Below, piece after piece: positions 1 through 3,000 of a stretch of 64,000 nt of DNA. The notes under the pieces are model-generated. The model made no database searches. It saw nothing but the letters and a program-made list of their open reading frames with translations, and had not been told where the DNA came from. The DNA is from Symbiodinium natans (taxonomy: Eukaryota > Sar > Dinophyceae > Suessiales > Symbiodiniaceae): positions 344,501 to 408,500 of the forward strand of contig CAJNDS010002120.1 of the NCBI GenBank assembly GCA_905221605.1. Direction: 5' to 3'. Position 1 is the first letter of the stretch. Every line of letters starts with the position of its first letter. The translations under genes and the position numbers were made by a program.

Positions 1-3000
1 TGCTTAATGAGCTCAGCCAGTTGTTCTTTGGGAGTGAGGATTTCTCCCTTTTCGCTGCGAATGTGTGTGCGCGCGAAGGGTTTCCAGGGAGCTAATTTTC
101 TAGCGCTCATCCACACTTTCCTTTGATCACCCTTAGCGGCAGCAACTTGTAGGTCCTCGGCGACAGCCTGCAGCTTTTCACGCTTAATTTTCTTGGCAGT
201 TTGTTTCATCGCTTTAGAGGCCACGCGAAACTCAGTGTACTTTTTCCATTTCCGGAGAGTTTCGATTAAGCTGTTCGCTTTGGTGGATTTCCATTCCTTG
301 TACTTAGCCCACATCTCTTTCGCGGTGTGCTTAAACTGCGGATTCTGCGAAACGCGGTTGTCAACTTCAGGTTCGGGAGGGTAGACGGTTTGCATGTGTT
401 CTTTCATGATCTCATCCACCTGCCGCGTAAAGCTGTGAAGATGCAAGTCAGGGTCCAGCTTCTGAATATCCGCGTCGATGAGGTGCTTTAACTTCTTAGC
501 CCGATCATCTGCCTGCGCAATGGAGTCTTGGATGCATTGCCTAGACGCCATCGAAGGTTTGACTGGGTTCGGGAGACGACATGGCGCGACTCTACGGATG
601 TGAGCCTGCACTGGGATGTGGTGATTGGCCTTCCACTTTCCGAGGGCGACTTGATGCATGGGTCTGCTGTGTCTAGCAGTGCGAGTCGCGTGCTGAACCC
701 TACACGCAACGAAATCCAATTGTGTTTTGGTGCCTTGGCGCACGCACGTATGTGCCGGAGTGCAGTTCCACGTATTGAGGAGAGTGAGGCCGAAGTCCTG
801 GAGTATTCCCAGAAAGTCATCTTCGTCAGGCGATCCCTCTACTTTGGCTACAACGGCACTACCTATCAATCCCCTCGAGGTTTTGATGGAGCAGTTGAAG
901 TCTCCCGCAATGATCAAGTCGTTCCGTTGTGGACTCTTCATGATGCTAGACCGTATCGCATCCCAGATTGAGGCCCGAGCTTTCAGGTTCTCGGCTTTGT
1001 CAATGTTTGTCCTCCACACATGCTGGTAGACATTCAGAAGATCGGAGCCGTTCTGTTGGTGATGCAGTCGAACCGAGAGTACTCTGCCTTGCCTAAGAAC
1101 CCTGTAACTAACATTATCTTGCTTGCAGACATTCTGATGAATCAGAGTGGCAACTCCTGAGCATTTGTCTTTGCCTGTAGCCCCTGAGGAGACGACGAAC
1201 CAGGGGCCGGACGAGAAAGTGCGGCACCCCTCCTGTTTCCAGTGTGTTTCTTGCACGAACACAATGTCAAAGTCATCTGGTTTCTCACTTAACCATGACA
1301 TGAGTTCTTGCCAGGCCGCCTGCGACCCCCCGCTCATGTTCCAGGTGAGACATCTAAGGTGAGATGCTTTGTCAGATTTGGGATGCTTTGTGGGTTTAGC
1401 CGGCCGGTCATTCGGCCCCAGCTGGTGTATGCCCCCTGTGGTTTTTGTCAGTGTTTCCCTAGTGTACCATCTGCCCTTATAGTGAGTGCCGCCTGTGGCA
1501 TAGGCTCGTGCGCGAGCTCGTCGCAGCGATCTCTTGGCGATCCACCCGATGCTGTTGTGGTGATTACGTATTGCCTGGCCAGTGTCTTCGCCCATTCTAT
1601 TGGACTGTTGGGGCCGATGTTGTGTGGCTCCCACCACGGTACTGGAACCCGTGGTAACCCTCACGTCTGCTCGACCCCCATTTGCTGTCACGAAGCTTCC
1701 ACAAAGGATAAGAATCCACATCCAGAAGAGACTTCGAAAGCTTGGGGCCCAGCCGCTGGACTTGGGACCAGCGCGGCTCGGTGATGTGCGTCTGGCGGGC
1801 TCACCCCTCTGTGTTGTAAGTATTTTAGTAGTGCACGTGGCATGTGTGCTGATGATGTAGGGTCTCCTTCTGTAGCAACCTCTGATTCTCCTGGTGCAGA
1901 GCCATTTAGTTAGTCTATCTCTTTGCAACGATAGAAGCCTGCCTGCATAACCATACCCACCGACCAAAAACACTCCCAGCAGAAGAATGTGTCCCCATCT
2001 TAACCTAGCGTACTGACTCTCGGGACCTGGGACATCTCGTCGATCATAGTCCTGCAGCAGAGGCGAGGGGTTGGTGCGTATGCATTGGGTAGAGGAGACG
2101 GTGCAACGGATGCGATGATGCAATACAACCCCCGTGTATGCTCTCTGAGCTGCAGTGCGGTCTTGGTCACGGTCGCTGGGGGCCGAAGATCGGCTTCCCC
2201 TGGGGGACCGGAAAGAGTGAGACCGAACAATGGCCTGCATGACGATGTCAGCTGCCGGTGGCCCCTCTGAGCCAAAAACTTCTTCTCCCGATGCCAGGAT
2301 CCTGACGGCCTTTATACAATGCGGGGCCAGCTTGCCATCGGCACCCCGGGTTAAGTAGTAGCCGTTCATTGAACGGAACCAAACGGCCCCCGATTCTTTC
2401 GGGGAGAGTATGATTGCGATGTCACAATGCGCGGGGTAATTCCGATATTCACTTCTGTCTACTGAAACACAATGAATGTGTGTCCGGGACTGGGAGAGGC
2501 CTCCCGTGATGACGCCCTTCGCCAAGATCGAGCCGTAGAAGTCCCAGTTGGTTGCATGGAGGACGTACTCCGGCAACTCGGCATCCCCAAGGGGCCGCAT
2601 GACCGCTTCATCACGTAGTCCTTTCTTGGAGTGACCTTGAACCGCCCTGATGTAGAGATCGGCACCGCGCCATTCGAGCGCGAAGCGTTGCTTGTCGTTC
2701 CAGTAGACCACCGAGCGGATGTAGTTGAGGGTTGCCCCCTTCTCCTTCATGATGGAGGTGCGTAAAAGGTCTGACACCTTGGTCCACCCTGCCTCGTCGA
2801 ACGTCAAGCCGAAGTCTTCAGAGTCGTGCCTCAGAACAACTGACAGTCTTTTGGAGAGAGACTGATCCAGTTTCCAGTAGAGCTTCGTCGGCTCCCCAAG
2901 GGGGGCCGAATCGCGTGCTGGCGTGGGCAGAGAGGTGCCATCGCTGCTGGCGTAGGTCGTCTCCGTGTAGATGTTGTATCTCTCGACCCTGCGCGGGGAG

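Follow-up and report, generated by a model that had tools for sequence, protein, structure and literature searches.

The Symbiodinium natans genome encodes a long interspersed nuclear element (LINE) whose main protein carries a Tpt1/KptA RNA 2'-phosphotransferase domain in the same reading frame as its endonuclease and reverse transcriptase (RT), and the active site of this domain is preserved by purifying selection. About 5.7 kb from the 5' side of the element lies at one end of a 64,000-nucleotide stretch (G000:C1808:344501-408500 of the 759 Mb S. natans assembly), referred to below as the window; all coordinates are window positions unless a contig or locus is named.

A Tpt1 Domain in the Main Frame of a LINE

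A stop-free frame runs on the minus strand, which carries all element features given below, from position 5414 to position 3 (1804 codons; chance of such a frame, ~7e-31 at the window's base composition) and extends along the contig to G000:C1808:342241, giving 2558 codons counted from position 5414. Its Tpt1 domain (PTS_2-RNA; Pfam ID PF01885) occupies frame residues 850-1024 (2343-2867; E=2.3e-32; 112.9 bits versus a cut-off of 26), whereas the matches to the bacterial equivalog models of NCBIfam fall short of their cut-offs (74.4 of 239 bits). It is followed by an APE-type endonuclease of the endonuclease/exonuclease/phosphatase (EEP) superfamily (Exo_endo_phos; PF03372) at residues 1356-1579 (675-1349; E=2.6e-6 in the window frame and 4.7e-6 in the 2558-codon frame) and then by the RT domain RVT_1 (PF00078; residues 1897-2141; E=5.3e-19); the last match in the frame, to a C2H2 finger, does not reach its cut-off. 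The order of EEP endonuclease and RT within one open reading frame (ORF) is that of endonuclease-type LINEs. The original prediction, made from the letters alone, had placed a Tpt1 domain and a LINE endonuclease in a single frame here; its coordinates and motifs were right, and the outcome that would have spoken against it, no match to the 2'-phosphotransferase family, did not occur.

Upstream of the Tpt1 domain lies an all-helical N-domain (3180-3599; pLDDT of the model, 82.7), for which no family match was found and no fold match was obtained in PDB or BFVD at E<=0.001. The linker between Tpt1 and the endonuclease (1410-2222) is weakly constrained. A hydrophobic stretch resembling a membrane segment is found in this linker (1932-1988) and in the corresponding linkers of related proteins described below (P0008, residues 399-417 and 556-574; P0011, 422-440; P0012, 599-617).

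The Arg-His-Arg-Arg tetrad of Tpt1 corresponds to R862 and H863 (2826-2831), R910 (2685-2687), and R977 of the SRTHIH motif (2484-2486). These residues, K908 of the KxR motif, and H953 and T955 of the HxT motif are present in all 19 copies of the element (see below). Retention of the tetrad had been predicted, and the predicted motifs are all present; however, residue counts in the Clostridium (6e3a) and yeast (7yw4) enzymes identify the third Arg as R910 of NDKQRF and not as the Arg of YIRAVQGHS. An apparent loss of the third Arg in lineages B, C, and D, obtained when the Arg of IRAVQGHS was first taken for it, was discarded on the same count, which puts this residue in the KxRF motif, where it is kept. 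Among 16 LINE-type rows from four lineages (A, with the window's copy, to D), R18 and H19 are each conserved in 15 of the 15 rows that have a residue at the site, R68 in 16 of 16, and R121 in 15 of 16. Structure prediction bears out the family assignment: the model has the two-lobe fold of Tpt1, with a winged-helix RNA lobe and an ADP-ribosyltransferase-like NAD+ lobe, and matches the fold of the animal enzymes.

Copies of the Element and Selection

In a search of the genome with PF01885, all 150 of the 474 candidates that were scored matched the profile, a lower bound on the number of Tpt1 loci; by a hand count of the resulting table, stops interrupt the Tpt1 match in 6 of the 150. The window's family comprises 19 rows, selected for a profile span of 3-177 and a score of 116-122 bits and thus retrieved through their Tpt1 domain. 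The 18 other copies are 92.9-99.5% identical to the window copy over 3.8-8.9 kb, and their alignments start at reference position 1118, 1123, or 1124 (window 5747-5753), within seven bases of each other. Dispersal of 19 copies over 18 contigs with a common 5' end is typical of a LINE, and the capture is not a one-off, as other lineages and a further family with a Tpt1-endonuclease frame also attest. In 9 of the 19 copies, one long frame takes in Tpt1, the endonuclease motif, and the YADD motif of the RT; in L038 and L042, the frame covers the same three features but begins later.

The ratio of nonsynonymous to synonymous substitution rates (dN/dS) was calculated by the Nei-Gojobori method over all pairs of the 19 copies, with intervals from a codon bootstrap that are too narrow because copy pairs share history, although the contrast between regions is nonetheless large. 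For the Tpt1 domain, where this ratio had been put forward as a check on the original prediction, it is 0.15 (bootstrap 0.06-0.31), with 29 distinct synonymous changes, 13 nonsynonymous changes, and no stop. This result supersedes an earlier protein-model test, in which 6 of 8 Tpt1 changes were conservative (p=0.011). Elsewhere in the protein, dN/dS is 0.14 in the N-terminal low-complexity part, 0.14 in the N-domain, 0.20 in the spacer, 0.41 in the linker, 0.23 in the C-terminal part, and 0.07 each in the endonuclease, post-endonuclease, and RT regions. The Tpt1 domains of other S. natans families (see below) give 0.07 in family H (11 of 12 copies, kept by a length and identity filter), 0.13 in family I (11 of 11 copies), and 0.07 in family G (3 copies given, of 4 loci).

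The 5' part of the element (4239-5747, up to the shared 5' end) behaves differently. In the Tpt1 frame, dN/dS of residues 16-392 is 0.92 (bootstrap 0.62-1.4), and another frame gives 0.30 there, so the stop-free sequence preceding residue 393 was rejected as an N-terminal portion of the protein. Because the ratio is low downstream, coding was taken to start at about Met393 (4238), near the first residues of the related proteins P0009 and P0014, and the main ORF (ORF2) thus occupies positions 3-4238 of the window. The uninterrupted frame of the original prediction is open throughout, yet its part upstream of residue 393 is probably not read in it. The frame with dN/dS of 0.30 (4696-5382; 228 codons from stop to stop) may represent ORF1: it has one stop cell among the 19 copies, and the other two frames of this region give 1.0 and 1.19. 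The extreme 5' frame (5746-5366) has dN/dS of 0.65 (bootstrap 0.33-1.33).

Related Lineages and Families

Six S. natans proteins named TRPT1 match the domain: P0003 to P0006 and P0015 at 98-100% identity, and P0007, with part of the domain missing from its gene model, at 90%; P0002 matches at 100% identity. The UniRef label of P0004, P0006, and P0015 carries taxid 8784 (Casuariiformes, birds); the taxid of S. natans is 878477. Three more lineages retain the N-domain and a Tpt1 domain of ~38% identity. Lineage B (P0008 to P0010; 38% identity in Tpt1 and 30% overall) shares the layout of the window protein, from the N-domain through Tpt1 and the hydrophobic linker to the endonuclease region; the endonuclease was seen by alignment, and Tpt1 was the sole Pfam match at E<=0.001. 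Lineages C (P0011, P0012, and P0017) and D (P0013 and P0014, from Symbiodinium sp. CCMP2592) show no endonuclease in their protein models; a weak match to RT is present in P0013 (E=0.0014). Strain CCMP2592 belongs to S. tridacnidorum (PMC8045281). P0016 and P0021 (61-69% identity) are apparently fragments of a single broken copy.

Further S. natans families with Tpt1 domains are G (L002-L004 and L023), H (L006-L017), I (L019-L022 and L024-L030), and J (L018). In family H, the frame continues past Tpt1 and encodes an endonuclease (E=9.4e-6 in L050), and that of family J enters an endonuclease-like start, as judged by eye. In family I, Tpt1 ends a 656-codon frame (L028:1435-3405, minus strand). 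The middle of this frame has, by eye, an ADP-ribosyltransferase-like start (YHGTKLESLYSILY); Pfam recognized Tpt1 alone. L001, a 323-codon frame with the best match of the search, and L005 are candidate cellular Tpt1 genes. Phylogenetic trees were built with 9, 4, and 7 cellular rows (the last without L001 and L005); the program issued a long-branch warning for the first and third, and with the second, a grouping of lineage A with the mammalian enzymes was rejected only at p=0.043. Pattern searches for relatives returned 10 stretches in the genome_contigs set and 40 in the viral_contigs set, none of them confirmed.

Insertion Target

The element looks site-specific, as its copies have one common start point in a satellite: 16 of the 19 begin within a few bases of one point of the satellite unit, after ...CAAAGCATATGA..CTTTTTGAAACCCATCAT. 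Fourteen of these junctions were found by a word search (<=3 substitutions) and those of L031 and L037 by flank alignment. The satellite, with a unit of ~113 bp, is present in the 5' flanks of L031-L037, L040, L041, L043, L045-L049, and L042; in L042, the 113 bp array (7.7 copies, L042:259-1129) stops exactly at the element. L038 and L039 share a different flank, which in L038 contains a 480 bp tandem repeat. Some copies, among them L042, L048, and L049, have long stretches of flank in common and could be duplicates, so that independent insertions number fewer than 19. L048 and L049 (G000:C2127) lie ~13 kb apart in the same orientation with flanks ~90% alike, perhaps through tandem duplication.

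The satellite word is absent from the window within three substitutions. Here, 28 TTTAGGG (CCCTAAA) units at 5775-5976 end 27 bases 5' of the element, and TTTAGGG is the telomere unit of dinoflagellates (PMC11453091). Telomere targeting was nevertheless rejected, since the array stops 27 bases short of the element and, of the 18 other copies, 16 are located at the satellite point. TTTAGGG/CCCTAAA units are also seen farther out in the 5' flanks of L031, L032, L037, and L041.

Possible Roles of the Tpt1 Domain

We tentatively favor, at somewhat less than even probability, a role of Tpt1 in healing the RNA of the element. Because LINE proteins act mostly in cis on the RNA that encodes them, Tpt1, carried by the main protein beside the nicking endonuclease and the RT, would act on the element's own RNA. 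It would consume NAD+ in taking 2'-phosphates or phosphorylated ends off this RNA or in ADP-ribosylating them; a putative source of such groups is a fungal-type RNA ligase resealing cut RNA, and their treatment by Tpt1 would let the RT pass. In support of this reading, the profile match and the fold are those of Tpt1, the catalytic residues are kept, dN/dS is low in the domain, and the endonuclease and RT share its frame. RNA viruses with Tpt1 in their polyproteins offer a parallel among RNA-copying parasites (PMC11316551).

Several observations weigh against this reading. The Tpt1 domain is under less constraint than the endonuclease and the RT (0.15 versus 0.07), and in 8 of the 19 copies YADD is not reached within the stretch read, either because a stop intervenes or because the contig runs out. 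Other findings complicate the picture without bearing on this reading in particular. Tetrad residues are missing from P0017, in which R121 is replaced by Lys, and from P0007, whose gene model lacks the RH part. In a numerous family (profile span 8-176, ~81 bits), the one copy inspected over 2.3 kb (L051; G000:C2410:208560-210900) has LRGH in place of LRH and 8 stops in the Tpt1 frame, so that this family may lack the RH pair and the joined endonuclease. Furthermore, the tree with 7 cellular rows neither unites the Tpt1 domains from G, H, and J nor resolves their order, which would fit one or more Tpt1 captures.

A further point against RNA healing concerns the NAD+ site. The position of R137 in the Runella enzyme is Pro (P994; 2433-2435) in lineages A to D, in all 15 of the 16 rows that have a residue there and in 8 of 8 in a second alignment. 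The two alignments place the Pro column at Cth 139 or 140, and the GMR motif common to the Runella and human chains decides the matter. GMR is found at this site in the human enzyme, L001, L005, and families G, H, and J, and GFR in family I; the bacterial row P0018 has Ala (one alignment). Thus, of the three-Arg NAD+-phosphate cage (Cth R121, R139, and R140), R121 is kept, the R137 equivalent is Pro, and the third Arg varies also in animal enzymes. As this cage has been described for one enzyme, the membership of the domain in Tpt1/KptA, as judged from sequence, stands, and its normal activity is in doubt. The R137A variant of Runella Tpt1 forms less product, accumulates phospho-ADP-ribosylated RNA, is inactive at 0.1 mM NAD+, and leaves yeast barely viable (PMC6333775). 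With Pro at the site of such a substitution, the window enzyme might work slowly, or be adapted to leave its substrate ADP-ribosylated.

The same Pro could favor stopping at the ADP-ribosyl stage and thus suit a different role, which we consider unlikely, whereby Tpt1 would cap the 5'-phosphate of the cDNA or of the nicked target with NAD+-derived ADP-ribose and keep ligases and exonucleases off during reverse transcription. Tpt1 adjoins the nicking endonuclease in the element, human TRPT1 ADP-ribosylates 5'-phosphorylated single-stranded RNA and DNA through the tetrad (PMC6582358), and the titles of PDB entries 9lda and 9ldc name archaeal KptA with ADP-ribosylated DNA. However, families G, H, I, and J keep the R137-equivalent Arg, and the Pro is therefore not common to Tpt1-bearing families. 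Slightly less probable is the more specific proposal that one branch of dinoflagellate LINEs has turned a tRNA-splicing enzyme into an ADP-ribosylation module, in which the Pro would halt the reaction at the phospho-ADP-ribosyl stage and phosphorylated ends of RNA, cDNA, or nicked satellite would be capped and so protected during insertion.

Less likely again, the winged-helix lobe might simply hold the element RNA, with catalysis of little account; binding alone would need fewer conserved residues than the tetrad, the KxR Lys, and the HxT motif, which are invariant in 19 of 19 copies and nearly so across lineages. A host-directed role, in which Tpt1 would erase or add marks (phosphate or ADP-ribose) on the nucleic acids of the host, RNA or DNA, in a conflict with the cell, for instance as a counter-defense, appears improbable: it fits poorly with the cis preference of LINE proteins, and we know of no such mark or defense in dinoflagellates. 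In its favor, Tpt1 homologs occur in phages (69 records), gammabaculoviruses (PMC3230848), and dicistro-like viruses (PMC11316551). That Tpt1 is a functionless piece caught by chance, which a single copy could not have excluded and with which the 8 frames that do not reach YADD would agree, is very improbable given the low dN/dS of the domain in the window's family and in families G, H, and I and the same domain order in lineage B.

Other Features of the Window

Nineteen other ORFs of the window have RT, RNase H, and zinc-knuckle matches only in Pfam. Retroelement pieces, all on the minus strand, include 16058-18862 and 19779-21839 (RT below the Pfam cut-off), 60420-63479 (RNase H-like), and 30221-36178 (zinc knuckle in a 1985-codon frame). 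An Rfam scan of the window gave no matches at the gathering score. An exact TTTTGGCTCAAG, which we take to be the 3' half of the dinoflagellate spliced leader, is found at 10739-10750 (minus strand); the window holds 3 matches with <=1 mismatch, compared with 0.6 expected.

Comparison with Known Systems

R1, TRAS, SART, and Tx1 are target-specific endonuclease-type LINEs. Like them, the window element is an EEP-type LINE inserted at one point of a repeated target; unlike them, it uses a ~113 bp S. natans satellite and carries Tpt1. A close counterpart in the genus Symbiodinium is SymbioLINE-Dnmt (PMC5890265), which also combines a captured nucleic-acid enzyme under purifying selection with an EEP endonuclease and RT in many copies. 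Its enzyme, however, is a DNA methyltransferase (DNMT) encoded by an ORF that precedes the one for the RT, whereas Tpt1 shares one frame with the endonuclease and RT. A scan for the cytosine methyltransferase domain (PF00145), which took in the 2558-codon frame (E<=0.01) and the window frame (E<=1) but not candidate ORF1 on its own, gave no match.

The window domain resembles the human (7yw3) and Clostridium (6e3a) Tpt1 enzymes in its fold, with both lobes, its Arg-His-Arg-Arg tetrad, and its HxT motif. The compared enzymes are single-domain proteins; here, the domain is part of a retroelement polyprotein and has Pro for an NAD+-cage Arg in lineages A to D. The dicistro-like viruses EPlV2 and PVLADV1 (PMC11316551) are likewise RNA-copying parasites with Tpt1 inside a polyprotein, but they are RNA viruses in which the domain lies between VPgs, with no endonuclease or RT. 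A Tpt1 homolog is also carried by gammabaculoviruses (PMC3230848), and Tpt1 records include 69 from phages and 34 from plasmids. Tpt1 homologs are spread over life, also where no RNA pathway with 2'-phosphates is known, and their role there has been called elusive (PMC6582358).

The original prediction knew of no described LINE with this domain, and no Tpt1-bearing LINE was found in the open-licence literature, searched by title and the start of the abstract; nor did that search reveal any other LINE in which a nucleic-acid enzyme uses NAD+. The main texts of PMC8045281, PMC11453091, and PMC5890265 do not contain the word "phosphotransferase" (0 occurrences). Captured enzymes in LINEs (DNMT) and Tpt1 in viruses have already been described. 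Symbiodinium gene models named TRPT1 are, in the cases read, retroelements. A Tpt1 domain maintained by selection in frame with an endonuclease and an RT provides a defined setting in which to seek the substrate of this enzyme.
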